Source: Lachnospiraceae bacterium
GTDB taxonomy: Bacteria > Bacillota > Clostridia > Lachnospirales > Lachnospiraceae
NCBI GenBank assembly: GCA_900199595.1
Contig: FZRB01000020.1
Location: forward strand, 1 to 64,000
Length of the DNA stretch: 64,000 nucleotides
Reading direction: 5' to 3'
Shown here: positions 4,642 to 38,273 of the stretch, piece after piece
Position numbering within the stretch: the first letter of the stretch is position 1
How the letters are laid out: each line of letters begins with the position of its first letter
The notes under the pieces: model-generated
The model's input: the letters and a program-made list of their open reading frames with translations, nothing else
Told to the model about the DNA's origin: nothing
The model's database searches: none
Position numbers and translations under genes: made by a program

Positions 4642-5919
4642 TTACTCCATATTTATTTTTTTATAATATCGTATAGCTTCACCTGTTATAGTAAGTGATC
4701 CGCAGACCACAATAATGTCACTTTCAAAGTCAGCATTATCCGTTGCCGATTTAATAGCTTCATTCACATTATCTGCCGGAAATGCCTTAATACCCTCTCT
4801 GTTAAAAAGCTCAGCAAGAGTTTCCTTTGAAAGAGCCCTTGGATTTGATGACTGAACCGTATAAACCTTATCTATAACAGGTGCAAGTATTTTGATCATT
4901 TTGTAGTATTCTTTATCAGCCAGCACACCTATTATAAATGTGATATTCCCACTTGTAAATAATGACTCCAGGCTTTCTCTCAGTTTTATCCAGGCATCTT
5001 CATTATGTGCACCATCAACTATTACCACAGGGTTATCATTTATAACTTCAAATCTTGCTTCCCAGCTTGTTTTTTCAAGACCTTTTCTTATTATATCTGT
5101 ATCAAGTCCCTGAATCCTCTGCAAAGCTTCTATTGCTGTAACAGCATTATATATCTGATAATGACCGCCCATATTTATCTTATATTCATTTCCATTATAA
5201 ATAAAGGCAGAACCATACATATTTTCATCTAATATGGAAAGTTTTGAAATGTCAGCCGAATAAAGCTGAACACTATTTTCTTTCGTATACTCAATTATCT
5301 GATTCATAACCTCATCAGTTTCCGGATATGTTATAAGAGTTGAGTCTTTTCTTACAATTCCAAGCTTTTCACTGGTTATGTCTGATATATCAGTTCCCAG
5401 AACATTCATATGGTCCATGCTTATAGATGCAAGGACATTGATAACATCTTCTTCTATTACATTTGTTGCATCCAGTCTTCCACCCATACCGCATTCTATG
5501 AGCATATAATCCACATCCCACTCTTTAAACAGCATAAATGCGGCAGCTGTTTCTATCTCAAAAGCTGTAGGACTGACATATCCATCTCTGATCATATCGC
5601 TGACTTTTTCTGAAATCTCTGTAATGACTCTGCTCACTTCCTCTTCAGTGGCCCATCTCTTATTCAGCTTCCATCTCTCACAATAATCAAATATAACAGG
5701 CGATATATATCTTCCGACCTTATATCCGGCCTGTATAAGAGCTTCCTCAATAAAAGCCATTATACTGCCCTTACCGTTTGTTCCAGCTATATGTATTGCT
5801 TTTATTCCCTTTTCAGGATTATTCAACCGAAAAAGAAGCTCGTTAATCGCTTCTAAACCGAAGACACTCCCGAGCTTTTCTTTTTCATGTATATATTTTA
5901 ATACTTCATTAAAATTCAA
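4642..5919 (-). CDS. folC: Bifunctional dihydrofolate synthase / folylpolyglutamate synthase
   Basis: FolC adds glutamate to dihydropteroate and then lengthens the polyglutamate tail of folates in the cytoplasm. The Mur-ligase-type P-loop IAGTNGKGS and the C-terminal region DGAHNEDAW are clear, and the 425-residue length is typical. I chose a TTG start (FNEVLKYIHEKEKLG follows) because GAGGT lies seven bases before it and it leaves a 16-base gap to the deacetylase stop. An ATG 18 codons upstream would overlap the deacetylase by 38 bases and has no better site. Confidence 0.95.
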   Translation of the reverse strand: MNFNEVLKYIHEKEKLGSVFGLEAINELLFRLNNPEKGIKAIHIAGTNGKGSIMAFIEEALIQAGYKVGRYISPVIFDYCERWKLNKRWATEEEVSRVITEISEKVSDMIRDGYVSPTAFEIETAAAFMLFKEWDVDYMLIECGMGGRLDATNVIEEDVINVLASISMDHMNVLGTDISDITSEKLGIVRKDSTLITYPETDEVMNQIIEYTKENSVQLYSADISKLSILDENMYGSAFIYNGNEYKINMGGHYQIYNAVTAIEALQRIQGLDTDIIRKGLEKTSWEARFEVINDNPVVIVDGAHNEDAWIKLRESLESLFTSGNITFIIGVLADKEYYKMIKILAPVIDKVYTVQSSNPRALSKETLAELFNREGIKAFPADNVNEAIKSATDNADFESDIIVVCGSLTITGEAIRYYKKINME

Positions 5920-5935
5920 AAAATGTACCTCATAC

Positions 5936-6943
5936 TTAATTTTCTCTATGATGGAATGGCGGTGTATTTTCATCTACCGGTGCAAGCTCATAACCTTCTT
6001 CTCTCAGAGCTTCTATAATCATAGGAAGAGCTTCTATAGTATTATAATGCTTGTCAAGATCATGCATAAGAACTATTGAATTGCCTTCATTATTACTTAC
6101 ATAGTGTAACACATTATCCTTAAGCTCTTCTGGAGTAAGACTCAGATCTTCAGCATCCTTGCTTTCAGCATTCCAGTCAAAATATGTATAACCATTATCC
6201 TTTAGGTATTTAATACATTTACTCATAGAAACAGTGGATACATCATTGGAGCTTCCACCAGGAAAACGATAGAATCTGGTATCTACACCGGTTATTCTTT
6301 CAACCAAGTCATGTACTCCGCTTACATCATCCACATAGGAATCATAATCCGCATAAAGCTTGCTATAGATATGAGACTTAGAATGAAGTCCCAGAGTATG
6401 ACCATCAGCTACGATTCTCTTTAATTCTTCGGTGTATTTATAACTGTTTACAACTACAAAAAATGTAGCCTTTACATCGTATTTATCCAGAACATCCAAA
6501 AGCTCCATAGTATACTTGGATGGACCGTCATCAAAAGTGAGGTAAACTGTTTTTCCGTTTTTCTTAACTGCATCAGAAGGTGTTGCCCTATCCTTTGAAG
6601 CATCTGTATCAGTTGAAACAACTGGCTTTGCATCATTATCAGATGCTTTATTATTCATAGCCATCATAAGATTACTAGGTTCAGTAACCATGGTTTCGGC
6701 TTTTTCCGGCTCAACTTCAATTATATCCTCAGTAGTAATAGAATGAACAAGACCTTGTGAGTTTTTGTTATCATTTGTTTTAGCAGCCGCACTAATATAC
6801 GCATTCCTCTTTACTTCAAGTCTATCAGCAGATCTTAAAACATAAAGAGTCATGATAAAAGGAAGAACAAGTAAAATTGCCGCAAATAATCCAAGTATCA
6901 GCTTCGTTTTATTCAGTTTTCTTATAAGTCCAAAAAGCTTCAT
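5936..6943 (-). CDS. Membrane-anchored polysaccharide deacetylase (NodB family)
   Basis: A 335-residue carbohydrate esterase family 4 enzyme, probably removing acetyl groups from peptidoglycan or another cell-surface glycan. Residues 15-35 form one membrane helix, so the catalytic part is outside. A linker rich in Asp/Ser/Lys follows. NodB motifs are in order: TFDDGPS, HSKSH (metal ligands), RFPGG, DWNAES and LMHD. The 5' end overlaps the upstream membrane-protein gene by four bases (ATGA), showing translational coupling. The reason for operon linkage to folate genes is not evident. Confidence 0.93.
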   Translation of the reverse strand: MKLFGLIRKLNKTKLILGLFAAILLVLPFIMTLYVLRSADRLEVKRNAYISAAAKTNDNKNSQGLVHSITTEDIIEVEPEKAETMVTEPSNLMMAMNNKASDNDAKPVVSTDTDASKDRATPSDAVKKNGKTVYLTFDDGPSKYTMELLDVLDKYDVKATFFVVVNSYKYTEELKRIVADGHTLGLHSKSHIYSKLYADYDSYVDDVSGVHDLVERITGVDTRFYRFPGGSSNDVSTVSMSKCIKYLKDNGYTYFDWNAESKDAEDLSLTPEELKDNVLHYVSNNEGNSIVLMHDLDKHYNTIEALPMIIEALREEGYELAPVDENTPPFHHREN

Positions 6944-24145: not shown

Positions 24146-24922
24146 TCAACATTTGCAAAGAATATCTCTTGCTTTTTTGATTTCTTCCTCAGAAGGCGGG
24201 TTTACATCAGGCAATGGATAACTTATCCCAAGCCTCTCATATTCAGGCACACCCAGCCTATGATATGGAAGCACTTCAACCTTAGATACAGTTTTCAGAC
24301 CACTGATAAAATCCGCCAGTTTTTTAAGATCAGATACATCGGTTGTGATTCCCGGAACAAGAACATGACGTATCCACATATCCTTGCCGGCTTCAGATAG
24401 ATACTGAGCCATATCAAGAATATTCTTATTAGTAAAGCCAGTCAGTTCTCTATGTGCTTCATCATTTATATGTTTTATATCAAGAATAAAAAGATCGGTA
24501 TATTCACACAAAGTTTTGAATTTATCAAAGAAATCAGCTTCATATGTAAAGGGATTGCCTGATGTATCCAGGCAGGTATTAACTCCCTCTTCTTTAGCCA
24601 ATTTAAAAAGTTCAGTAACAAAATCAATCTGCAGGAGAGCCTCTCCGCCACTAACTGTTATGCCACCTCCGTTTTTCCAGTAAGGCTTATACCGCTTAGC
24701 CTGCATAAAAACATCCTCGGGAGTACGGGCAGAAACCTGAATCCCCTTATTCTTACACTCCTCAAGACTGCTCTCACTGTTTACAACACGCCAAGTTTCC
24801 GGGTTATGGCAATATTTACAGCGCATATAACAGCCCTGGAGAAAAACTATAAATCTGATTCCCGGGCCATCTACTGCGCCAAAGCTCTCTGTTGAATGAA
24901 TATAACCTACTATTTCTTTCAT
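24146..24922 (-). CDS. pflA: Pyruvate formate-lyase activating enzyme
   Basis: A 258-residue radical SAM enzyme that installs the glycyl radical on PFL. The [4Fe-4S] motif CYMRCKYCHNPETW has the usual CxxxCxxC order, and the SAM-binding VSGGEAL and LDTSGN segments follow, as does LVPGITTD. Length fits PflA (about 245-265). It is 18 bases downstream of pflB on the same strand, the usual pair order. Confidence 0.98.
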   Translation of the reverse strand: MKEIVGYIHSTESFGAVDGPGIRFIVFLQGCYMRCKYCHNPETWRVVNSESSLEECKNKGIQVSARTPEDVFMQAKRYKPYWKNGGGITVSGGEALLQIDFVTELFKLAKEEGVNTCLDTSGNPFTYEADFFDKFKTLCEYTDLFILDIKHINDEAHRELTGFTNKNILDMAQYLSEAGKDMWIRHVLVPGITTDVSDLKKLADFISGLKTVSKVEVLPYHRLGVPEYERLGISYPLPDVNPPSEEEIKKARDILCKC

Positions 24923-24940
24923 CTTATTCCTTTAAATAAA

Positions 24941-27208
24941 TTATAAAGAATCATGGAATGTACGATTAATTACATCCATCTGCTGTTCCTTAGTAAGATT
25001 AATAAACTTAACAGCATAACCGGATACACGGATTGTAAAGTTGGCATATTCCGGCTTATCCGGATGTTCCATAATATCCTCAAGAACCTCACGGCTGAAT
25101 ACATTTACGTTCAGATGATGCGCTCCCTGATCGAAGTACCCATCCATAGCATTCACCAAATTATTCACTCTTTCATCTTCTGTATTACCAAGAGCAGACG
25201 GATTCATTGACTGAGTATTAGATATACCATCAAGGGCCCAAACATAAGGAATCTTGGCAACCGAATTAAGTGAAGCAAGAAGTCCGGACTTCTCAGCTCC
25301 ATAGCTGGGATTAGCACCAGGAGCAAGCGGTGTCCAGGCTTTACGTCCATCAGGCAGACTTCCGGTAAACTTACCGTATACAACATTCGACGTTATAGTA
25401 AGTATAGATGTGGTAGGTTCTGAATTTCTGTAGGTATGTCTCTTCTTTATATCATCGAGAAATGTCTTCAAAAGCCATACTCCTATCGAGTCAGCTCTGT
25501 CATCATCATTACCATACTTAGGGAACTCTCCTTCAGCCTTATAATCCACTGCAAAGCCATCTTCATCACGAATAACCCTGACCTTAGAGTATTTAATAGC
25601 AGAAAGTGAATCTATGACATGTGAAAATCCAGCTATACCTGTAGCAAATGTACGACGTACATCAGTATCTATAAGTGCCATCTCAGCTGCTTCATAATAA
25701 TATTTATCATGCATGTAATGTATAAGATTCAGAGTATTCACATACAGTCCGGCAAGCCAGTCCATCATAAATTCAAATCGTTCAATCACTTCATTATAAT
25801 CAAGATACTCAGAAGTAATTGGTCTGGCAGCAGGTCCCACCTGAACACGGGACTTGGCATCTACTCCACCATTAATTGCAAATAGAAGACATTTTGCAAG
25901 ATTGGCACGAGCACCAAAGAACTGTATCTCCTTACCTGTCTGTGTTGCTGATACACAGCAGCAGATAGAATAATCATCACCCCACACAGGCTTCATTACA
26001 TCATCATTTTCATACTGAATAGAACTTGTCTTAACAGAAATCCTTGCAGCATACTTTTTAAATGCCTCTGGAAGCTGTGATGAATAAAGTACAGTAAGAT
26101 TTGGTTCCGGTGATGGTCCCATATTTTCAAGTGTATGCAGGAATCTGAAACAGGTCTTTGTAACATGAGGACGTCCATCCATACCGATGCCGCCGACCTC
26201 AAGAGTTGCCCATACAGGATCACCCGAGAACAGTTCATTATAAGACTGGATTCGAGCAAACTTCACCATCCTGAGTTTCATAACAAAATGGTCAATCAGT
26301 TCCTGGGCTTCTTTCTCAGTTATAATTCCCTTTTTAAGATCTCTGTCAATATATATATCAAGAAATGTAGAAACACGACCTACAGACATAGCTGCACCAT
26401 TCTGTGTTTTAACCGCAGCCAGATATCCAAAATACAGCCACTGCACAGCTTCTTTAGCATTCTTTGCAGGACGGGATATATCACAGCCGTAGATTTCAGC
26501 CATTTTCTTCATTCCTTCAAGTGCCTTGATCTGCTCTGCTAATTCCTCACGGAGACGAATAACATCATCAGTCATGACACCATGACCACAATTCTGCTTA
26601 TCTTCCTTCTTCCATTCAATAAGCTGATCTATACCATAAAGAGCAATTCTTCTGTAATCACCTACTATACGGCCTCTTCCATAAGTGTCAGGAAGACCGG
26701 TAATAATGTGACTTTTTCTGGCTGCTCTCATCTCATCAGTATAAGCATCAAAAACAGCCTGATTATGAGTTTTATGATAATCAGTAAATACTTTATGCAG
26801 TTCAGGATTAGGTTCATAACCATACATTTTAAGAGATTCTTCCGCCATCTTGATTCCACCAAATGGCATGAACGCTCTTTTCAGCGGTTTATCAGTCTGA
26901 AGTCCCACTATCTTTTCAAGATCCTTCATGGATTCATCAATATAACCGGGGCCATAAGAAGTAAGAGTTGATACAACATCAGTCTCTTCATCTAATACTC
27001 CACCCTTATTATGTTCTTCTTTTTGAAGCTGCTGAAGTCTGTCCCAAAGCTTATCTGTAGCTTCAGTGGGTCCCTCAAGAAAGCTCTCATCTCCTGTATA
27101 TGGGGTATAATTATAGGTAATGAATTCTCTGACATTACACTCTTCTTTCCAGAGATGCCCTTTGAAACCATCCCACTCACTAAAATAAAGCATTAAATCC
27201 TTCTGCAT
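24941..27208 (-). CDS. pflB: Formate C-acetyltransferase (pyruvate formate-lyase)
   Basis: A 755-residue glycyl radical enzyme that splits pyruvate plus CoA into acetyl-CoA and formate. The opening [10 protein letters not shown] and [11 protein letters not shown] matches PFL; the active-site cysteine pair lies in [12 protein letters not shown], followed by [12 protein letters not shown], and the glycyl radical site is RVSGYAVKF near the C-terminus. GGAGGAAATAATA leads into the chosen ATG. Three consecutive Cys rather than two occur at the active site. It feeds acetyl-CoA to the thl pathway encoded downstream. Confidence 0.98.
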
Positions 27209-27318: not shown

Positions 27319-27360
27319 AAAAAAAGAACACTCCAACGCGAAGTTCGAATGTCCTTTTTG
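27319..27360 (-). terminator. Terminator after the mreB-like gene
   Basis: On the minus strand GGACATTCGAAC and GTTGGAGTGTTC pair with wobbles and one mismatch and are followed by seven T. It is a looser relative of the GATGACA palindromes in layout. Confidence 0.8.
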
Positions 27361-27394: not shown

Positions 27395-28399
27395 CTATTT
27401 TTTGTTTTCTTCATCCTGAACCATTATATACTCTCCGGCCATTCCTGCTCCGGCAGCAACAACACTGTCAGGTTCATCGGCAATGGATACTTTGATACCC
27501 GTTCTGGCAGTAATAACTTTATCCATACCATAGATCAGACTTCCTCCACCTGAGAGGAGAATTCCTTCTTTGCCAACATCAGCAATCAATTCAGTTTCTG
27601 CCTGGTCTAATACTTTCATTATTCCATCAATGATCTGATTAACAAGATCATCGAAGGCTTCAACAGTTTCATTAGCACCCAGATCCAGTCTGACAGGAAG
27701 TCCATTTATCTGACTTTTCCCTTTTATCTCATAAGACGAATCAACTGTTCTTGGATATACACCTGCTATTTCTACCTTAGCATCTTCAGCAGAAAGTTCA
27801 CCAAGCTCAATATTATATTTACGTCTTACAAATCTGGCTAAAGCATCTGTAAAATCATCGCCGCCAATTTTAAGTGAAATACCATAGGCTATATCTCCGG
27901 CTGATATAATGGCTATTTCAGTAGTACCACCACCTATATCCACAATCATATGGCCGGTAGTTTCCATTATATCGACGCCAGTTCCCAATGCAGAAGCTAT
28001 CGGTGATTCCAGAAGAAATATTTCCTTTGCTCCTGTTTTTACTATAGCATCCTCTACAGCTCTTCTTTCAACCTCTGTGATACCTTGTGGAACAGTCACA
28101 CATACATTCGGTCTTCCAAGAAGTCTTCTTTTTCTGAGCGCATTTTTTATAAATGCCTTTATCATTCTCTCAGCTATAGCATATTCAGATATAACACCAT
28201 GCTGCATAGGTTTTTCAACAACGATAGCTTCGGTAGTTTTACCAAGCATCTTTTTTGCTTTATAACCTACAGCAATAATCTTTTTTTCCTTACGCTCATA
28301 TGCAAGAACTGAAGGCTGATTAATAACAATACCTTTATCCCGCATATATATACAAACCTTGGAAGTACCAAGATCTATACCCATGTCAATACGATACAT
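27395..28399 (-). CDS. MreB-family actin homologue
   Basis: A 334-residue bacterial actin. Phosphate-1 motif GIDLGTSKVCIY, the connect segment, phosphate-2 motif VDIGGGTTEIAII and adenosine motif LLSGGGSLIYGMD are present. MreB proteins polymerise under the membrane and steer wall synthesis. mreC and mreD do not follow, so this is not the standard mre locus; it could be an Mbl/MreBH-like paralogue. Its ATG overlaps the stop of the giant coiled-coil gene by one base (TAATG), implying coupled translation and a shared function with that protein. Confidence 0.93.
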   Translation of the reverse strand: MYRIDMGIDLGTSKVCIYMRDKGIVINQPSVLAYERKEKKIIAVGYKAKKMLGKTTEAIVVEKPMQHGVISEYAIAERMIKAFIKNALRKRRLLGRPNVCVTVPQGITEVERRAVEDAIVKTGAKEIFLLESPIASALGTGVDIMETTGHMIVDIGGGTTEIAIISAGDIAYGISLKIGGDDFTDALARFVRRKYNIELGELSAEDAKVEIAGVYPRTVDSSYEIKGKSQINGLPVRLDLGANETVEAFDDLVNQIIDGIMKVLDQAETELIADVGKEGILLSGGGSLIYGMDKVITARTGIKVSIADEPDSVVAAGAGMAGEYIMVQDEENKK

Positions 28400-31300
28400 T
28401 AATTAAAATCCTCAGGTGTAACCTTTTTCTTTTCATTGTCTCTCTTTGATGCCTTTTCAAGTGCAGAATCAACCTCTTTTATAAGTCTGTCAAGATTACC
28501 TGTTTCCATACCCATAATAAGATTGTCGAGTTTGTTCTTAACCTCTGCAACATACTTAAAGCCTCTGTTCTCGATATATGTGAGAGCTACCTTAGCCATA
28601 TTCTCTTTAGTAATCTTTGTCATATCAATAAGGTATTCAAATTCAGAAAGGATTTCTGAAGTATTACCAAACAGTCTTGATATGGAATCAATCTCACCTG
28701 TAAGAATAACAACAAAGTCCTTTACGTCCTTAGCAGAAAGATTAACTATCTCTATAAGCTTTTCAGGCTTTACAAGACCAGCGTTCTCCACTACAAGACA
28801 TCCACCCTTAAGCTTATCAAGAGCATCCAGCTTAACCTTGTTAAGAGCCTGAGCTTTTATCTTAGCAATAGTCTTTTCACTGCAGATACCCATATCGTAG
28901 AAGCTTCGTGCAAAGTCTTCACCTACACATACAGAACCAAATCCATACTGTCCTAAAATAACTATGTTTCTGGATCTTATTGTTTCTTCCATATTTGCAG
29001 CTATATCATTAAAGGTATCAACTATTTCATCAGCTGATGCTTCAATGTAGAGATACTTTTCAAGATAATTAGCAGCAAGTGGAAGTCTTTGGCCAGGTGC
29101 AGTCTTAGTAAGATCGATATCCATACTGTCAACTGAGGCAGCTTTCTTTTCTGCATCCTTTATGGCAGCCTTAGCTTTTTCAAGTCTCTTCTTAGCATCA
29201 TCTATAACAGAAGCAGACTCTTTACTCTTATTTGCAGCTTCCTTTTCTGCTTTCTTCTTAGCATCTGCAAGCTCTTTTTCTACTGATATAATACCAGCTT
29301 CTTTTTCTTTTAATTCTTTTTCTTTTGATTTTACATTATCCTCAGCATCTTTAATTGATGCATCTGCAAGAGATACTGCTTCCATAAGCTGAGCCTTGAT
29401 AGCTTCCTGCTCCATAGCTCTGGCTTCTATTTCAGCTTTACTCTTTTCAAATTCTGCATCTATAGCAGAATTCTTCTCATCGATAATCGCTTTAATATCA
29501 GCATCAGCCTTTGAATCAGCTTCCTTCTCAGCACCGGCAATAAAATCACTTATAAATGCAGCCGAACCACTTACGATTGTTTCAAGAACAGATGCTAAAG
29601 AGTTTTCTCTTTCTTTTGCAGCATTGGCACGTCTCTCATCAATATCAGAAGCTTTTGCACTGATAGCAGCAACAGCTTCCTTTCTCTTCTCAACCTCTGC
29701 CTTTGCATCTTCTACTGAATCAGTAATCTTCTGAAGCTTATTTTTAGCTTCTTCAGCTGCTTTCTTCTTCTTATCTACTTCAGCTACCGCATCATCTACT
29801 AAAGCTTTCTGCTTATCAACATTAGCCTCAAGATCACTGACCTTAGATTTAGCCTCTTCAAGTTCATCAGCTATCTCAATAACTCTTCTCTTTGCAGATT
29901 CGAGTGCTTCTTCGGCTTTCTTGACATTTTCATTAGCCTCAGCAAGAGAACCTTCTATTCCAACAAGATCAGCATTAGCCATCTCAACATCAGACTCAGC
30001 AAACTTAACATTTTCTTTAGCCTTTTCAACTTCTTCTTCAGCTAATACAATTGCTTCCTCTGCATTTTCTTCGTCAGTCTTAAGACTCTTAATACTGCTC
30101 TTTATATCAGCAACCTTATCTTCAGCTTCTTTAACTCTGAGTTCAGCAGCCTCAATCTCACCCTTTAAGCTAACTTCTTCATCATTAAATCTTCTCTCAT
30201 CCTCAGCTGCTTTTTCTTCTGCTTCCTTTTCAGCATTGGCACGCTCTTCAGCTTCTTTTTCTTTAGCTTTGATTTCAGCAGTTTTTTGAGCTTCCTCTAT
30301 TAAGCCGGCTACTATAGCCGCCCTTCCTTTTTCAGCCTCTTCCTTAGCTACAGCCTTTTCTGCGTCAGCCTTTTCTGATGCTTTATCGATTTCAGCTCTT
30401 ATTGTTGCTATCTCATCATCCTGAGCCTTAACATCATTTTCAGCTTTATCTTTTCCTTCTTTAGCTGTTTCAACAGCTTTTTTAGCATCTTCTATAGCTT
30501 TTTCTGCATCTTCTTTTTCCTTCTTAGCAGCTTCAAGCTTAGCTTCTAATTCAATCTCAAGATCACTCTTTTCAACAGGAACATCCTTTTTGTCCTTAAG
30601 AGCTTCTTCAAGTTCTTCAATCTCTTTAATAATAGAAGCCTCTAATGCTTTAGCTTCTTCTATCTCTTTAGCTGCATCTTCTTTTGCCTTTTCTTTAAAT
30701 GCCTTAGCAGCAGCCTTACGTGCCTCATCAGCAGCCTTCTTTCTCTGCTCTTCAAGAACACGTCTCTTTTCAGCTTCTTCAGCCTGACGCTTAGCAGCTT
30801 CCTCAGCCTTCTTAGCTGCACGCTCCTCAGCCTGACGCTTAGCTTCTTCTTCAGCCTTACGCTTTTCTTCAGCAGCCTTAGCTTTAGCTTCCTCAGCCTT
30901 CTTAGCCTCTTCTTCTTCAGATTTTTCCTTTTCAAACTGAGCTTTCTTACGAGCAGCAGCCTTTTCTCTAGCTGCAGCAAGACGTCTCTCCTGATCGTCT
31001 ATGCCACTAGACATTTTCTTCTTTCTGGCTTTCTCATCCTTAAGCTCTTCTTCGATTTCAGATGTCTTATCCTTTGAGCCTTCTCCTTCTGATTTTTTAT
31101 CATGATTATCAGCAGAGATATCCTGGAAACCATCCATTTTAGATGCCTGAGCAGCGAATGATGCATCATCGTCATCATCAATATCATACATACTGTCAAC
31201 ATCATTAGAAGGAGTTTCTCTGTTTGTAGGAATAATACTGTCTAAATCATCACCAGATTTCTTCTCCTCTCTTTCATCTGAAACCCAGCCGTTATCTGTA

Positions 31301-31824
31301 CTAACAGTCTTAGTTCCATCAGCAGAGAATGATGATCCACCATGAAGAGTTATCTTATCTGAATCTTTATCTTTATTTGATTTAATATCAGCATTAAGTC
31401 CACCACCTGAAGGAATGCTTCCCAAACCACCTGAAGGTGTACTTCCGAGACCACCCTTTGAAGTATCTTTTCCCCCAAGACCTTCTCCTAACTTCATGTC
31501 AGCGGTAAGAACTACAGTTTGATCATCAGCTCCTGCTTCAAAACCAGAACCTTCTGCTGATTTCTGTTCCTCTTTCTTCTCAGCATCCAAATCAATACCG
31601 AGTTCCTCGGCTCTTTTTCTCCTCTTTTTCTCTTCAATCCGCGCAAGTTCTTCAGGGGAGAGAGTTTTAAAATGCTTTTTCTCCTCTGTTTTCTTCTTTT
31701 CGCCTTTCTTGGAAAATGCCATAGCTTCCTGTTCTCTTTCGAGCTTCTTCTGCTTTTCAGCACGTTCCTTCTCTACTTGTGCTCGAACGGCAGCTATTAG
31801 CGCCTCTCTCTGATCTACAGCCAC
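28399..31824 (-). CDS. Giant coiled-coil protein with degenerate AAA-like C-terminus
   Basis: An 1141-residue protein of no named family known to me. Residues 1-70 are basic helices; 90-280 are low complexity with GGLGSTPSGGLGS repeats and acidic runs; about 285-900 are Glu/Lys/Ala-rich heptads, a very long coiled coil. Residues 908-1141 look folded: NIVILGQYGFGSV resembles a P-loop lacking the Lys-Thr/Ser, GGCLVVENAG resembles Walker B, and VVILTGEID a sensor-1 strand. I read it as a degenerate nucleotide-binding AAA-like domain. No signal peptide or membrane helix is seen, so it is cytoplasmic. It is coupled to the MreB homologue and follows the TPR protein, suggesting a scaffold of a cytoskeletal assembly. 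Confidence 0.8.
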   Translation of the reverse strand: MAVDQREALIAAVRAQVEKERAEKQKKLEREQEAMAFSKKGEKKKTEEKKHFKTLSPEELARIEEKKRRKRAEELGIDLDAEKKEEQKSAEGSGFEAGADDQTVVLTADMKLGEGLGGKDTSKGGLGSTPSGGLGSIPSGGGLNADIKSNKDKDSDKITLHGGSSFSADGTKTVSTDNGWVSDEREEKKSGDDLDSIIPTNRETPSNDVDSMYDIDDDDDASFAAQASKMDGFQDISADNHDKKSEGEGSKDKTSEIEEELKDEKARKKKMSSGIDDQERRLAAAREKAAARKKAQFEKEKSEEEEAKKAEEAKAKAAEEKRKAEEEAKRQAEERAAKKAEEAAKRQAEEAEKRRVLEEQRKKAADEARKAAAKAFKEKAKEDAAKEIEEAKALEASIIKEIEELEEALKDKKDVPVEKSDLEIELEAKLEAAKKEKEDAEKAIEDAKKAVETAKEGKDKAENDVKAQDDEIATIRAEIDKASEKADAEKAVAKEEAEKGRAAIVAGLIEEAQKTAEIKAKEKEAEERANAEKEAEEKAAEDERRFNDEEVSLKGEIEAAELRVKEAEDKVADIKSSIKSLKTDEENAEEAIVLAEEEVEKAKENVKFAESDVEMANADLVGIEGSLAEANENVKKAEEALESAKRRVIEIADELEEAKSKVSDLEANVDKQKALVDDAVAEVDKKKKAAEEAKNKLQKITDSVEDAKAEVEKRKEAVAAISAKASDIDERRANAAKERENSLASVLETIVSGSAAFISDFIAGAEKEADSKADADIKAIIDEKNSAIDAEFEKSKAEIEARAMEQEAIKAQLMEAVSLADASIKDAEDNVKSKEKELKEKEAGIISVEKELADAKKKAEKEAANKSKESASVIDDAKKRLEKAKAAIKDAEKKAASVDSMDIDLTKTAPGQRLPLAANYLEKYLYIEASADEIVDTFNDIAANMEETIRSRNIVILGQYGFGSVCVGEDFARSFYDMGICSEKTIAKIKAQALNKVKLDALDKLKGGCLVVENAGLVKPEKLIEIVNLSAKDVKDFVVILTGEIDSISRLFGNTSEILSEFEYLIDMTKITKENMAKVALTYIENRGFKYVAEVKNKLDNLIMGMETGNLDRLIKEVDSALEKASKRDNEKKKVTPEDFN

Positions 31825-31875
31825 GTTGCTACTACCTCCTTAAACTCCGGTTTCTATACCTTCTAAATAAATATC

Positions 31876-34050
31876 TTATAATTTTATTCCCAGAGAAGCC
31901 AGAAGAGCTTCTGCTTCTTTCATCTTTTCTTCTTCTTCTCTAAGTCCCTCATTTATTTTACTTTGTTCAGTTGAAATAACTTTATCAAATTTATTCTCTA
32001 TCTTGCTTTCTTCCTTGCCAAGACTTGGGAATAAATCAGAACTGAATTTAGAGAAATCCATCTTTGGATAATCAAATGTATCCGAAGCAAATGTATATTT
32101 CTCTTCAACTACTGGTTCCTGAACAGGTTCCGGTTCAACAATCGGTTCTGGTTCAGGTTCTGATTCAATAACCTCAGGCTCTGGTTCTGGTTCAGCTTCT
32201 ACAATTGGTTCCGGTTCGAAGTCTTCCTCAACTTCTGGAACGAACTCTTCAACTTCAGGTTCCGGTTCAGGCTCTAAAATCGGCTCCGGTTCTGATTCGA
32301 ACTCTGATTCCGGCTCGAAGTTTTCCTCTACTTCCGGAACGAACGCTGCTTCTGGCTCGAAGTCTTCTTCTACTTCCGGAACAAATTCTTCAACCTCGGG
32401 CTCCGGCTCTACAAGCGGTTCAGATTCAACTACCGGTTCTGGCTCTGGCTCTGGTTCAACTTCCTGTTCAGGCTCTGATTCCACAACTTCAGCTTCATGC
32501 TCCGGTTCTACAATTGGTTCTGGTTCCGGCTCAAACGCTGCTTCCGGTTCGAAGTCTTCCTCTACCTCCGGAACGAACTCTTCTTCATGTTCAAAGTCTT
32601 CCTCAACTTCCGGAACGAACTCTTCAACCTCATGCTCAGGTTCTACAACCGGTTCTGATTCAACCTCTGGCTCTACAACCGGCTCAGGTTCTGGCTCTAC
32701 AGCCACAGGTTCTGGCACCGGTACAGGTTCAGGAATATGTCTTGGTTCCGGAATTGGTTCCGGTTCCGGCTCTGGTTCAGGTACTAGCTCTGGTTCAGGT
32801 ACTAGCTCTGGTTCAGGTTCTGGTTCAGGTTCCGGAAGAGTCTCCTTAAATGCTTCAAAATCTACGAATACATTTTCATCTGGATCTTCTTCAAACTCAA
32901 AGTCCACTTCGCTTAATCCTGCAATCGTATCTGATTCAGGAGCAAATCCATCATCATAGTTATAAGTAACAAAATCTCTGAATTTATATTCCGATTCTTC
33001 CGTTTCAACATTATCAGATACATTATCATCTTTTTGAGAAACATCAGAAGGATTATTCTCAACTGTCACTTCAGAACTAACATTCTCTTTTGAAGAATCC
33101 ATTGTTGTATCCACTGTTTCAGTATTATTATCAACCTTAGAATCTGAAACAGCTTCTGAAGTAGATTCACTCTGCTCCTTTTCATTTTTATCAGATGTAT
33201 CTGATTCTTTTTCAGATTTATCCTTATCTTCTTCAGGAGCTTTTTTCTTAAACTTCTTTTTTATAAATACCTTAAGACCTTTTTCTACATCATCGATTGA
33301 TTTAATACCTGTTTCTTCACCACTAACCATGGAAGTAATTACAGCTTCATTTTCCTCAGGAGGATTCATTCTGTAATAATCCTGTTCAAGCTGTTCCTTT
33401 TCAAGCACACGGGTAGCTTCATCCTCCGGTTTATCATCAGGATGTTCTTCCTCAGCATAAATGAAAAAGCTGTCCCATGATGTACTTTTTTCTACCATGG
33501 CACTATCTATAAGTGGTAAATAAGGACTGGTTTTAAATGTAGCTTTATAATCATTTGCTATTACATCAATATCCCCTTTGTCCAGAAGCCTGGAGAGAAT
33601 AAGTAATTCATAGCTCCATTCAATATCCATATTATCTCTGTAATATGGATAGATCATATCATAAAGCTCTAAAAGATCAGGCTTTCTTGCCTTTTTCATG
33701 ATATATCGTATATTTTTAAGCTCTCTTTCAGATCCATTGCTGAAATATATATATTCTTCAAAGTATCTTTCAGCCAGCTTAAAATATCCGAGTTTTAAAT
33801 AATAATTTATGAGAGAATAAATTATTCTTGTGGCTTCAGGAGCCATAGAATGCGCCTTCACATAATAATATCTGGCTTCTCTCAGCCTGCCTACATTTTC
33901 ATATATCTCGCCACAAGTATGAAGAAACTGCGGATTATAAGACTTCTCAAGATCTTGAGAATCCAAAATACCAACCGCAAGTTCATATTCGTGAGCTGCA
34001 GCAAGTTCCTTTATTTTGTTAACACTGGTCATACTTAATCCGGAACTCAA
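31876..34050 (-). CDS. TPR protein with long Glu-Pro repeat region
   Basis: A 724-residue cytoplasmic protein. Residues 1-200 carry tetratricopeptide-like helix pairs ([24 protein letters not shown], given here as its key spacing Gly-Tyr-Ala). A short basic patch ([14 protein letters not shown]) follows near 260. About 400-650 is a highly acidic region of EPEPEP and [12 protein letters not shown] units. The last 70 residues ([11 protein letters not shown] onward) look like a conserved helical tail. The repeat region resembles spacers in TonB or cytoskeletal linkers; function is unknown. It lies between the YbjQ/zinc-ribbon gene and the giant coiled-coil gene in one operon. Confidence 0.8.
32100..32840. 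repeat. Degenerate tandem repeats coding Glu-Pro units
   Basis: The coding strand repeats GAACCAGAACC-like units of 6-12 bases and longer blocks for [14 protein letters not shown]. The DNA is prone to slippage, so copy number may vary among strains. Confidence 0.85.
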
Positions 34051-34108
34051 ACTATTACCTCTAAGTTACTGTAAAAGTAACATCCTTTCTAAAAAAACAA
34101 TGAATTAT

Positions 34109-35212
34109 TTAGTCATCTACAGAAGCATCTTCAAATACTTTTTCAACTTTTTCTATAACTGTTTCCTTCATGTTTCCACGAGTCTTCTCATACTGAAGTC
34201 CTGATTCCATGATTTCAAGAAGTTCAAGACGTACTCCCGAATCAATTTCCTTGATATACTGCATAAGTACATCTTTTATCTCGACAACATATTCCTTTTC
34301 TTTCATGCGGTCGATCATTTCCTCGTAATTAAATGTTGCCTTCGTCATTATATCCTTCTGCTTACGTCCGCAGACAATACATTCCTCAGAACCAGCTTCA
34401 TTAACATGACCACAGTTACAGGTCCAGATCATGCCATCTGTTTTATACTTCTCAACAGCATCAATACCACGTTTTTCTTTAAGTGTCTGAAGTCTTCTTG
34501 AACTTAGAGTTACATTAATAGGAACATCATTACATGCATATACCCCACGAGGTGTAGCATATTTATTAAGTGTAACCTTAGCATCCTTCAGAAGAAGCAG
34601 ATCACTTGGTGCTATTTTACTCTGAATAAAATCAGACTCTATAACTGAAAGATTAATATTCTCACTAAAAACAAAATCCACGTTCTTTACTACAAGTCTC
34701 TCATCATAGAGATTTGTATATTCAACATCACACCTTAAAGCCTGAATATCTTCATGATTATAATTGTAACATACAAGCTTCATATTAATGCTCTGTGAAT
34801 TACCATCCAGAACAACCTTTACAGGTCTCGGTACAAGACGTGTATAATAATTTGTTACATAAAGTTCTTTATGAACGTTATCGGTGACATTTGCAATCTT
34901 ATTCACCTTAACTGCAGTACCGGAAACAATTATTCCAAATGAACCTGCTTCAAAAGGTGCATAAGTCATGCTCATACCTATAATTGCATTTGCCCCTCTC
35001 TTCTTAGCTGTTTTGATCAGCTGATTTTCAGCGTCCTCACGACACTGTTCAAGCTTAGCTGTATCCTTACGTGCAACGTCAGCAACATTGGCAGCTATTC
35101 CAGAAATAAAATTGGAACCAAGAATTGCCTGACTGGAAATAAATCCCAGGTACTCATGGATGCTATACCCCTCTATACTGGAACCTGTTGTAACTAAAAT
35201 AGACTCCGCCAT
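34109..35212 (-). CDS. YbjQ-family protein with C-terminal zinc ribbon
   Basis: A 367-residue protein. Residues 1-107 match the YbjQ/DUF74 family (LVTTGSSIEGYSIHEYLG, ANAIIGMSMTYAP), which forms pentameric rings and is called a putative heavy-metal-binding domain. The centre is beta-rich and unassigned. Near residue 260 is a zinc ribbon, WTCNCGHVNEAGSEECIVCG, of the RanBP2-like type. A C-terminal helical part follows. YbjQ proteins are normally about 105 residues and free-standing, so this is an extended form. It leads the operon with the TPR, coiled-coil and MreB-like genes. Confidence 0.85.
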   Translation of the reverse strand: MAESILVTTGSSIEGYSIHEYLGFISSQAILGSNFISGIAANVADVARKDTAKLEQCREDAENQLIKTAKKRGANAIIGMSMTYAPFEAGSFGIIVSGTAVKVNKIANVTDNVHKELYVTNYYTRLVPRPVKVVLDGNSQSINMKLVCYNYNHEDIQALRCDVEYTNLYDERLVVKNVDFVFSENINLSVIESDFIQSKIAPSDLLLLKDAKVTLNKYATPRGVYACNDVPINVTLSSRRLQTLKEKRGIDAVEKYKTDGMIWTCNCGHVNEAGSEECIVCGRKQKDIMTKATFNYEEMIDRMKEKEYVVEIKDVLMQYIKEIDSGVRLELLEIMESGLQYEKTRGNMKETVIEKVEKVFEDASVDD

Positions 35213-35244: not shown

Positions 35245-35273
35245 ATTATAACCTTTAGACAGATTTATTTCAA
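35245..35273 (-). promoter_or_regulatory. Promoter of the YbjQ-TPR-coiled-coil-MreB operon
   Basis: TTGAAA, 17 bases, TATAAT on the minus strand; the -35 box overlaps the folA stop codon. It separates the four-gene module from thyA-folA, although readthrough from thyA-folA is also possible. Confidence 0.7.
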
Positions 35274-36792: not shown

Positions 36793-37119
36793 ATGACAAA
36801 TATTAATAAACAAAGAATATTCTGGGGAAATATCCTCAGAAAGCTTCGTTATGATCATGAACTGACTCAAAACGAAATTGCAGAAATACTTCATATGACA
36901 AGACAGAATTACAGCAATATTGAATGTGGAAAAAGGCAACCATCTGCAGAGACGATTGCCATTTTATCTGATCTTTATGAAGTTGATTTATATAATTATA
37001 TAATTAATCTGATGCCAAATAACTACGTTGCTGAACTAGACAATTATAAAGTATATGTAAAAAATGTAAAAAAACCCAGAAAGAAGAAAAGTTCTACCGG
37101 AGATCAGCAGGATAATTAA
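36793..37119 (+). CDS. XRE-family transcriptional regulator
   Basis: A 108-residue protein with an N-terminal helix-turn-helix of the Cro/C1 type (GNILRKLRYDHELTQNEIAE, then MTRQNYSNIECGKRQPS) and a basic, lysine-rich tail. No sensor domain is present. AAGGAG precedes the ATG. It is a singleton, divergent from thyA and convergent with the receiver-like gene, whose stop codon overlaps its own by four bases. Confidence 0.9.
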   Translation: MTNINKQRIFWGNILRKLRYDHELTQNEIAEILHMTRQNYSNIECGKRQPSAETIAILSDLYEVDLYNYIINLMPNNYVAELDNYKVYVKNVKKPRKKKSSTGDQQDN

Positions 37120-38273
37120 AGCATTCCCTTAAGTATATCAACAGCAATATTGATATTATTCTTTTCAAATGCTCTCTTGACCTGATCTATCTTTCTACGT
37201 ATTTCAGCATCAAGATCATATTCAGCAAGCTTGGAAAGCTTCTTTTCAGCTTCTTCCTTATTATTCTGTTCAAGAGACGCAAGAACATCTTCAGCTCTTT
37301 CTTTAATATCTGCTGATTTAAGCTTTATACCATTTGTTTTTAAGATAAGAATCTCAGTGGAGTTGGAAACCTCAGTTGTTTTTCCAAGCCACTTTGATAT
37401 TCCGGCCACTACCTTCTCCCACTCAGTTACAAGAGACTGCCAGTTGCTTTCAGCAACATCGAGGGTATCGGCTTTTGCCATATTAACATGGTCATCAAAA
37501 CAATCTGCAAGATATATAGCACCTATTTTCCTGGCAGCTTCACGACAGGAACGCATCATATTCATATAATCATTATTTTTTGAAGTATATAAAGCATCCA
37601 GAAGATCCGCACTGTATACTTCATACTCCTCACAGAATCTTTCTGCAGCTTTCATGTAAGCACTCATATCACCCTTAAAGAGCTTAAGACCTTCTATAAG
37701 CCTTACATCACAGCCCTTGAGAGCTTCCGCATCCTCAGCTATTTCACGGATATCTTCAATAAGATCATCATCATCTGGAAGCATTTTTTCAGGAACCAGA
37801 CTAATAATAATATTTTGAAGAATAGCCTTGTCAATAGGTTTACGAAGAATCCCGTCAAAGCCCGCATTTTCAAAATAAATGTCAGGCTCATCAACCTTTT
37901 CATCCAGAATTATATAGATTTTTGCATCACGGCATTTGCTCTGGTTACTTGATTTGATATTTCTTAAAGTCTGAATGCCATCCATTCTTGGCATATTTCT
38001 CGACAGAAGTATCAGATTATACATATCCTTGGTAACTTCCATCATGCATTCCATGCCACTGGATACAGAGGTTACAAAGCAGCCAGTCTGATCGATCATT
38101 CTTTCAATAGTTATTCTTTCTTCATTATCAGCATCTGCCAACAACACATAAAACTGACCTTCTCTTGTATAAAGATTCAATTGTTTCTCTATATCGACAG
38201 GACGATCCTCGAAGCCGGTCAGCTCGACATTTTCACGTTTTCTTATCAGATCAAACTTATCTAAAAGAGACAT
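37116..38273 (-). CDS. Receiver-like plus HPt-like protein lacking phospho-residues
   Basis: A 385-residue protein. Residues 41-160 are a receiver domain: acidic pocket ADADNEE (Asp47, Asp49) and Lys145 in LRKPID are kept, but the phospho-acceptor position in LILLSRNMPRMDG is Ser91 instead of Asp. Residues about 190-290 look like a histidine phosphotransfer domain (SCREAARKIGAIYLAD compared with AHxLKGxAxxIGA), with Arg241 where the His should be. The C-terminal 90 residues are Lys/Glu-rich helices. It is thus probably a phosphorylation-independent signalling or scaffold protein. No partner kinase is adjacent. Confidence 0.8.
   Translation of the reverse strand: MSLLDKFDLIRKRENVELTGFEDRPVDIEKQLNLYTREGQFYVLLADADNEERITIERMIDQTGCFVTSVSSGMECMMEVTKDMYNLILLSRNMPRMDGIQTLRNIKSSNQSKCRDAKIYIILDEKVDEPDIYFENAGFDGILRKPIDKAILQNIIISLVPEKMLPDDDDLIEDIREIAEDAEALKGCDVRLIEGLKLFKGDMSAYMKAAERFCEEYEVYSADLLDALYTSKNNDYMNMMRSCREAARKIGAIYLADCFDDHVNMAKADTLDVAESNWQSLVTEWEKVVAGISKWLGKTTEVSNSTEILILKTNGIKLKSADIKERAEDVLASLEQNNKEEAEKKLSKLAEYDLDAEIRRKIDQVKRAFEKNNINIAVDILKGML

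Follow-up and report, generated by a model that had tools for sequence, protein, structure and literature searches.

A candidate cytoskeletal module of a Lachnospiraceae clade, built on a second MreB

A stretch of 64,000 nucleotides from a Lachnospiraceae bacterium (assembly GCA_900199595.1, contig FZRB01000020.1, positions 1 to 64,000; hereafter the window) holds four adjacent genes encoding a YbjQ protein (gene 1), a TPR protein (gene 2), a long helical protein named COIL (gene 3) and an MreB homologue named MreB2 (gene 4). We propose, with a probability of about 0.5, that they constitute a cytoskeletal module of a Lachnospiraceae clade, built on a second MreB and acting as a membrane scaffold with a non-enzymatic adaptor. 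The sequences show four co-conserved genes, the paralogy of MreB2, a fused counterpart of genes 2 and 3, and the loss of catalytic residues. The conserved set, the second MreB and the co-occurrence across genomes lend partial support to a preliminary description of the window, which had read the locus as a cell-shape or polar scaffold; the scaffold role itself is still one that we infer. Loci of relatives are designated by L-numbers and genomes by G-numbers, G000 being the window's own genome.

The four minus-strand open reading frames (ORFs) assigned to positions 27395-35212 were all present there (Table 1). One genome per species was scanned with two short peptide patterns for the COIL C-terminal domain, and 80 of 83 loci were kept; the scan samples recognisable copies, and divergent ones such as that of G002 were missed. 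Four record names occur twice among the 80 loci, one assembly having contributed both a module locus and a short paralogue in each case. Nine loci are short unlinked paralogues and 18 of the 71 others are cut by a contig end; in all of the remaining loci (53 of 53) the four genes lie on one strand in the same order, which settles in the affirmative whether they are regular neighbours in related genomes. The mreB2 gene is downstream of COIL in all testable loci (70 of 70), although in L117 the distance is 2257 nucleotides (nt). L036/L062 and L051, in which the long gene is broken into two ORFs, were counted as holding COIL. Of 12 loci of relatives that were read, seven hold all four genes in order (COIL being broken in L036) and one is cut off by a contig edge; the distant YbjQ loci of four genomes (L043-L046) have none of the remaining three genes. 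Rumen and gut genomes of the Lachnospiraceae type thus provide about 70 loci with the set, some of them from cultured strains, for example Eubacterium ruminantium ATCC 17233 (L077). The record title of L107 (JAMPFJ010000013.1), which names Bacteroidales, is probably wrong, and the locus appears to belong to G188, a genome of the window's family.

Co-occurrence was analysed for MreB2 and YbjQ in 200 genomes of the family and for the AAA domain in 397. Full-length YbjQ orthologues were found in nine of the 200 genomes, with 47-67% identity besides the window's own. The MreB2-type profile matched 199 of 200 genomes, only nine of them above 500 bits (G000, G002, G040, G070, G106, G129, G160, G180 and G188). 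The YbjQ orthologue, MreB2 and the split adaptor encoded by genes 2 and 3 are present in exactly the same nine of 200 genomes. Two independent nine-genome sets would match by chance with a probability of 8.5e-16, a figure that is far too strong given shared ancestry. YbjQ homologues alone were rejected as a marker of the module: 38 of the 200 genomes have a YbjQ match, 29 of these have no MreB2 above 500 bits and carry a distant or short YbjQ, and L043-L046 lack the other genes.

The genes are dispersed in G002, where the YbjQ gene lies beside thyA at a contig end, a rhomboid-TPR-COIL series followed by a gene reading as argG lies on a second contig, and an MreB2-type gene lies on a third; COIL and MreB2 are unlinked there, yet all genes are present. 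The gene after the G002 MreB2 and the radical-SAM gene after MreB2 in L035 share 65% identity over 645 residues.

Ratios of nonsynonymous to synonymous substitution rates (dN/dS) against L048 and L050, respectively, were 0.028 and 0.036 for MreB2, 0.045 and 0.044 for the YbjQ protein, 0.047 and 0.081 for the pseudo-AAA domain of COIL, and 0.23 and 0.21 for the rest of COIL. The TPR domain gave 0.057 against L050 and was not computable against L048, and dS of the TPR linker was saturated; where computed, dS was 1.2-2.0, near saturation, so that the ratios are rough. The values of about 0.03-0.08 for the four conserved domains indicate strong purifying selection there, with looser constraint on the linkers. 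Chance ORFs were ruled out on the ground of this selection, rough as the ratios are and some of them not computable.

MreB2 matched MreB_Mbl (PF06723; 2e-108, 362 bits, cut-off 27) and PRK13927 (4.5e-108, 361 bits, cut-off 293), both above the cut-off, and the former match bears out its earlier assignment as an MreB homologue. Four MreB-profile matches were found in the window genome. The strongest, at 452 bits, is a housekeeping copy on contig 11; the window copy reached 362 bits, and the other two are weak (78 and 68 bits) and lie within longer ORFs of 626 and 577 residues. The MreB-like gene is therefore not the sole MreB of the window genome, a possibility that the preliminary description had raised; it was rejected here on account of the second full mreB and could not be rejected for G002. 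The description had also given mreC and mreD as absent. This holds for mreC within the locus, but an mreC, the only one found, lies elsewhere in the genome on contig 10 (G000:C10), and no mreD search was made.

In a tree of 71 MreB2 and 22 housekeeping sequences, each group made up one side of a branch with support of 100/100, and in a second tree of 21 MreB2 and 32 other sequences the ordinary housekeeping copies fell on one branch (31 rows, 100/100). The trees support MreB2 as a paralogue separate from the family's housekeeping MreB. The row L206 (G330:C1:504695-505630) is a very divergent MreB-like sequence with 239 bits to the MreB2 profile, present besides a housekeeping copy; it had been labelled canonical and is the cause of the second change in the second tree. 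Canonical MreB accompanies MreB2 in eight of the nine module genomes. None was found in G002, whose assembly is 94% complete and whose MreB groups with the early MreB2 sequences L121-L127 at modest support (90/67), so that not every genome need have the MreB-like gene as a second copy. In the four canonical mreB contexts that were read, the partner genes of MreB2 were not beside the canonical gene.

Most of the nucleotide site of MreB2 is conserved: the phosphate-binding Asp9, T159 and the Asp or Glu at position 161 are kept in 71 of 71 sequences, and Asp154 in 70 of 71. The catalytic Glu, which corresponds to E131 of T. maritima and E140 of Caulobacter and whose role is taken from passages of PMC9195046 and PMC9597168, is kept in 44 of 71 MreB2 sequences versus 22 of 22 housekeeping copies examined. 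The 27 others, in which it is replaced by Ser, Thr, Ala or Arg, form one clade (100/96) that includes the window, the residue having been lost once, at the base of this clade. Within the MreB motif E...T-x-[D/E], as given in part of PMC9597168, the window protein keeps the Thr and the Asp/Glu and has Ser132 in place of the Glu; the loss would affect activity and not membership of the fold. MreB2 also has a loop at the place of the known membrane-binding loop of MreB (a role taken from sections of PMC10718530 and PMC9195046). Its tip is hydrophobic in most sequences. A pattern search gave Ile-Trp in 32 of 71, and two further sequences that it overlooked have the pair as well; these are the residues tested in Spiroplasma MreB5 according to the portion of PMC9195046 consulted. 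MreB2 may form membrane-bound filaments through this loop, here recognised from sequence.

No Pfam match was found for COIL. Its rod is a charged Ala/Glu/Lys/Arg helix, and the earlier label of a giant coiled coil applies to residues 511-750, where windows have a heptad power of 8-16 at a period of 3.5, but not to residues 271-390, which peak near 4.0. The rod of the early-branching members L103, L105, L107, L114 and L125 is dominated by an 8-residue repeat of period 4.0, of the kind likened to single-helix ER/K rods; unlike these members, the window's rod has acquired a heptad stretch of about 240 residues. The longest Gly/Pro-free stretch ranges from 104 to 506 residues across 58 proteins, roughly 15-75 nm if fully helical, and the rod sequence varies far more than that of the end domains, which fits a spacer.

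The C-terminal domain of COIL is of the CbbX/EccA type, matching CbbX (3zuh, 5.1e-9) and EccA1 (9lur, 4.8e-6) in a profile search of the PDB. Its AlphaFold monomer model had a predicted local distance difference test score (pLDDT) of 93.8, and the best Foldseek match was CbbX (3syk, 8.6e-11; TM-score about 0.58 over the query, a moderate fit). The Walker-A Lys was absent from 50 of 50 rows, five unlinked paralogues included, its position being taken by Ser (23), Thr (16), Leu (10) or Asn (1), and the degenerate AAA-like end that had been described is thereby confirmed. The Walker A GNPGTGKT is present in nine further proteins of the CbbX type, found in six of the nine module genomes. The last six residues contain Asp-Phe (DF) in 67 of 81 sequences; the 14 without it are nine short paralogues, four module copies and one truncated row. 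This tail, found in most module proteins and in seven fused proteins (see below) but not in all of twenty other fused ones, is suggestive, no more, of a binding peptide.

Short pseudo-AAA+ paralogues of about 380-440 residues, without TPR, long rod or MreB2 beside them, form one clade (G000:C15:54860-55540, listed as L128, and L090, L095, L096, L100, L102, L104, L106, L112, L119 and L129). The one in the window's genome adjoins a small Hpt-domain gene. These 11 copies (nine of the 80 loci, G000:C15 and G160:C1) were rejected as a second module, as no MreB2, TPR or YbjQ neighbour was found in the stretches read; with no neighbourhood common to all, they were treated as a dispersed paralogue clade.

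Genes 2 and 3 have a fused counterpart outside the module. The AAA profile of COIL matched 347 of 397 family genomes, mostly weakly, and some matches were ordinary CbbX-type proteins. From the better-scoring matches 27 fused proteins (7 + 20) were taken, a non-random choice, and the rest of the matches in the 347 genomes were not read. All 27 combine an N-terminal TPR-type domain, a long linker and a C-terminal AAA domain in one gene, and the TPR-domain profile matched the N-terminal part of 20 of the 20 further ones. No fused form was found in any of the nine module genomes by the TPR-domain test, for which 21 fused proteins served as positive controls; the further AAA matches in these genomes were short paralogues (G000, G160) and the nine CbbX-type proteins, which lack a TPR-type domain. 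The fused proteins of G131 and G330 scored highest and adjoin the split clade in the AAA-domain tree, a quick tree in which long branches meet. The linker of the G131 fused protein contains, at residue 548, a near-copy of the COIL N-terminal motif (REALIAAVRAQVEKER). TPR and COIL would thus most simply be two halves of one split protein, and a change from fused to split is the simpler reading of the direction, the reverse being possible. A low-scoring split adaptor may exist in another genome.

The fused protein, of about 560-1080 residues, is widespread in Lachnospiraceae (L133-L137, L221-L240), and its Walker A varies, with intact GKT- or GKS-type loops in some members. No Pfam family name was obtained for the three members scanned, and no MreB or YbjQ gene lay beside the seven fused proteins whose surroundings were read. 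Outside the family, a draw of 245 genomes of the class gave no COIL-AAA match above 60 bits.

In gene 2, the TTG start agrees with the conserved N-terminus SSGLSM. A TPR-type domain, as assigned earlier, is conserved in 41 sequences, but the best repeat model was weak (4.2e-4) and under the Pfam cut-off. The acidic Glu-Pro linker was found as described, with 49 Glu-Pro dipeptides in the protein and 36% Asp/Glu over residues 211-665, and the length of the protein varies from 451 to 1359 residues in complete loci.

Gene 1 matched the YbjQ_1 profile (UPF0145/DUF74) at 6.6e-19, and its N-terminal domain matched UPF0145 structures (2gtc, 6.2e-22; by Foldseek 1y2i, 1.5e-8, and also 1vr4). Three matched entries of the family list five chains each. 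The whole-chain AlphaFold model was moderate (pLDDT 81.5, predicted template modelling score 0.52). The YbjQ half of the former YbjQ/zinc-ribbon label is firm; for the other half four Cys are invariant in 41 sequences, but the zinc-ribbon model was not reached (E 0.17). A rhomboid-like gene directly precedes TPR in 12 of 12 loci with a YbjQ-TPR distance above 500 nt, and in G002. The loci bearing it are L097, L101, L103, L105, L107, L114, L121, L122, L124-L127 and L131; Pfam recognised the rhomboid domain in L040, L042 and L131, and the copies of L097 and L101 are short (214 and 208 residues). The window and the other loci searched gave no such gene, a pattern that assigns the rhomboid gene to an earlier-branching form of the module.

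From these features, the following mechanism may be proposed. MreB2 would bind ATP and polymerise on the membrane via its hydrophobic loop, and in the window's clade the loss of the catalytic Glu would slow hydrolysis and give long-lived filaments. The pseudo-AAA+ head of COIL would dock at or close to the filament without enzymatic activity, with the rod as a spacer that keeps the N-terminal motif, and via it the TPR protein, off the membrane. The YbjQ protein may be a multivalent hub that gathers clients, as suggested by a family crystallised with five chains per entry, and in earlier forms a rhomboid protease would be tied to the same set. We infer that the products form a complex with stable filaments, whose likely function is the positioning of a membrane or envelope process parallel to the canonical Rod complex. 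A further step is tentative and rather doubtful: both motors would be off (MreB2 without its Glu, AAA+ without its Lys), and an EccA-like TPR-AAA chaperone together with a duplicated MreB would have given rise to a membrane scaffold of purely structural nature, organising an envelope function separately from the Rod complex.

Several points weigh against the proposed module. The co-occurrence in nine of 200 genomes is a raw figure, uncorrected for shared ancestry; the window MreB2 scores under the NCBI cut-off for mreB (TIGR00904, 337 versus 365.75 bits); and the MreB2 of G002 may do the ordinary MreB job. The catalytic Glu is lost in only 27 of 71 MreB2 sequences, so that slow turnover cannot hold family-wide, and the spacing of COIL and mreB2, which runs from an overlap up to 469 nt and reaches 2257 nt in L117, means that co-transcription is not assured everywhere. 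The surroundings, which we take to be folA and thyA upstream and pflB, pflA and a butyrate-type thl-crt-hbd set downstream, are conserved as well: the upstream side carries folA/thyA in 47 of 52 loci, and the downstream side thl/crt/pflB in 38 of 41. With flanks generally syntenic, linkage and order alone prove little on function, and housekeeping flanks almost as conserved as the genes themselves are what would be expected if regional synteny and descent, and not one system, held the four together. That explanation is nevertheless improbable given the presence of the genes in the same nine of 200 genomes, their dispersal without loss in G002, and the five of 52 loci in which the set is complete although the 2 kb upstream contain no folA/thyA.

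The main rival, which we consider unlikely, takes MreB2 as an isoform of the ordinary Rod machinery, like Bacillus Mbl or MreBH, with genes 1-3 as accessory regulators of wall synthesis. MreB2 is indeed close to MreB, its PRK13927 match being above the cut-off, and the MreB2-type gene is the only full-length MreB found in G002; several MreB isoforms are usual in Gram-positives, as stated in part of PMC10718530, and SpoVK, of the same AAA+ clade as COIL, activates MurG according to an excerpt of a preprint (PMC10659427). The catalytic Glu that all 22 canonical copies retain is, however, lost in the window's clade, and the co-inherited partners of MreB2 were absent from beside the canonical gene. 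The CbbX-clade domain could alternatively belong to an EccA-like chaperone or secretion assembly, in which the TPR-AAA adaptor hands clients to a membrane machine along an MreB2 track, as EccA has TPRs and an AAA domain of this clade (part of PMC10659427) and the COIL profile matches EccA1. This is very improbable with the Walker-A Lys lost in every row and with YukC/EssB above the cut-off in none of the nine module genomes, no other secretion systems having been searched.

Three specific roles were also rejected. For type VII secretion, YukC/EssB was above the cut-off in nine of 200 genomes and G002 had a sub-threshold match only. For a curved-cell or motility module, the flagellar export gene FlhA (PF00771) was found in four of nine module genomes (G002, G106, G180, G188) versus 110 of 200. 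For a sporulation module, SpoIVA (PF09547) was found in four of nine (G040, G070, G106, G188) versus 134 of 200, 133 of them above the cut-off.

The genes of the window are separated by 58 and 51 nt, followed by the 1-nt overlap of the COIL stop and the mreB2 start. The small gaps and overlap given in the preliminary description are thus real in the window but not general in relatives: among 70 other loci with both genes the 1-nt overlap recurs only in L048 and L049, L110 has an overlap of 61 nt as called, and elsewhere the gap is 2-469 nt, or 2257 nt in L117. The shared promoter that had been claimed could be located as a sequence, TTGAAA-17-TATAAT, at 35273-35245, but such sites are not clearly enriched in the region (32 versus 25.5 +/- 5.2 in shuffles). 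Directly after mreB2 lies a strong hairpin with a U run (-20.6 kcal/mol for 66 nt folded, z -5.1), which fits one transcription unit.

Table 1. Features of the four-gene locus in the window.
Feature	Position	Strand	Description or basis
Gene 1, YbjQ protein	34109-35212	minus	367 residues, ATG start; YbjQ domain, beta-rich middle, zinc-ribbon-like part, C-terminal helices
Zinc-ribbon-like CxCG...CxxC (C265, C267, C278, C281)	34370-34420	minus	four Cys invariant, 41 sequences
Gene 2, TPR protein	31876-34050	minus	724 residues, TTG start; N-terminal TPR-type domain and acidic Glu-Pro linker
Conserved TPR-type domain, residues 1-240	33331-34050	minus	alignment of 41 sequences
Acidic Glu-Pro linker, residues about 405-647	32110-32838	minus	length varies in relatives
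Gene 2 C-terminal peptide, partly conserved	32020-32076	minus	8-row alignment; not recognisable in L040, L042
Gene 3, COIL	28399-31824	minus	1141 residues, GTG start; N-terminal motif, Gly-rich stretch, helical rod, pseudo-AAA+
COIL N-terminal motif REALIAAVRAQVEKERAEK	31753-31809	minus	near-copy in fused protein
Heptad (coiled-coil-like) rod part, residues 511-750	29575-30294	minus	periodicity 3.5
CbbX/EccA-type pseudo-AAA+ domain, residues 905-1141	28402-29112	minus	profile, AlphaFold, Foldseek
Degenerate Walker A GQYGFGS	28933-28953	minus	Lys position replaced
Gene 4, MreB2	27395-28399	minus	334 residues, ATG start; second MreB
Codon of Ser132	28004-28006	minus	place of catalytic Glu (T. 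maritima E131); alignments and tree
Loop with hydrophobic tip (NALRKRRLLGRP)	28109-28144	minus	at known membrane-binding loop of MreB
Promoter-like TTGAAA-17-TATAAT	35245-35273	minus	consensus match only, 11/12
Intrinsic-terminator-like hairpin with U run	27319-27359	minus	just 3' of mreB2

Several neighbouring genes were recorded in the window. A pflB-pflA-like pair (24146-27208) lies between mreB2 and the thl-crt-hbd genes, as also in a few relatives (pflB in L053, L054, L055 and L057); at many other loci this place is occupied by a radical-SAM gene, or nothing there was recognised. A response-regulator receiver protein (37116-38273) is encoded upstream of thyA in the window's clade, with longer versions at the same place in L098 (670 residues) and L073 (655 residues, cut by the end of the stretch). 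The window also encodes a bifunctional penicillin-binding protein with an InlB B-repeat-like domain (56828-59821) and a Mur-ligase family protein (4642-5973).

Most of what is known of bacterial actins concerns the Rod complex, plasmid partition, magnetosomes and Spiroplasma motility. Searches of open-access papers gave no description of a named system with the present gene set, in agreement with the preliminary description. Here a family-wide TPR-AAA protein occurs as two genes with a long rod, in company with a second MreB. Genomes reveal the order of events, with the catalytic residue lost once in one MreB2 subclade, and the set allows a direct test of how a dynamic actin and an AAA+ chaperone become structural parts.

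Compared with the MreB, Mbl and MreBH proteins of the Rod complex, MreB2 shares the MreB fold and motifs, the hydrophobic membrane loop and the actin-type nucleotide site, but its clade, in a tree built without Bacillus Mbl or MreBH, is separate from the family's housekeeping MreB. Its gene set differs from the mre operon in lacking an adjacent mreC, and the Glu is lost in the window's clade. The fused protein of Lachnospiraceae resembles the adaptor in both end domains, in an acidic or helical linker and, in most, in the DF-type tail, and differs in being a single gene with an intact Walker A in some members. Cell shape also involves crescentin, bactofilins and further cytoskeletal proteins of the coiled-coil type, which form long helical filaments or spacers; COIL may be compared with them and differs in carrying an AAA+ head. 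The CbbX/EccA/SpoVK clade, which acts on dedicated targets according to part of PMC10659427, is matched by COIL as an AAA+ by sequence and fold, and the TPR plus AAA layout is that of EccA, whereas the adaptor of the module is without the Walker-A Lys, split over two genes, equipped with a long rod and linked to an actin. The Spiroplasma proteins MreB5 and MreB3 are likewise MreB paralogues independent of wall synthesis, as described in sections of PMC9195046 and PMC9597168; the same sections give an Ile-Trp loop tip, as in many MreB2 sequences, and a changed active-site Glu in MreB3. The window genome differs from Spiroplasma in having also a canonical MreB and mreC, and MreB2 differs in its partners and in keeping the Thr-x-Asp/Glu that MreB3 is without.

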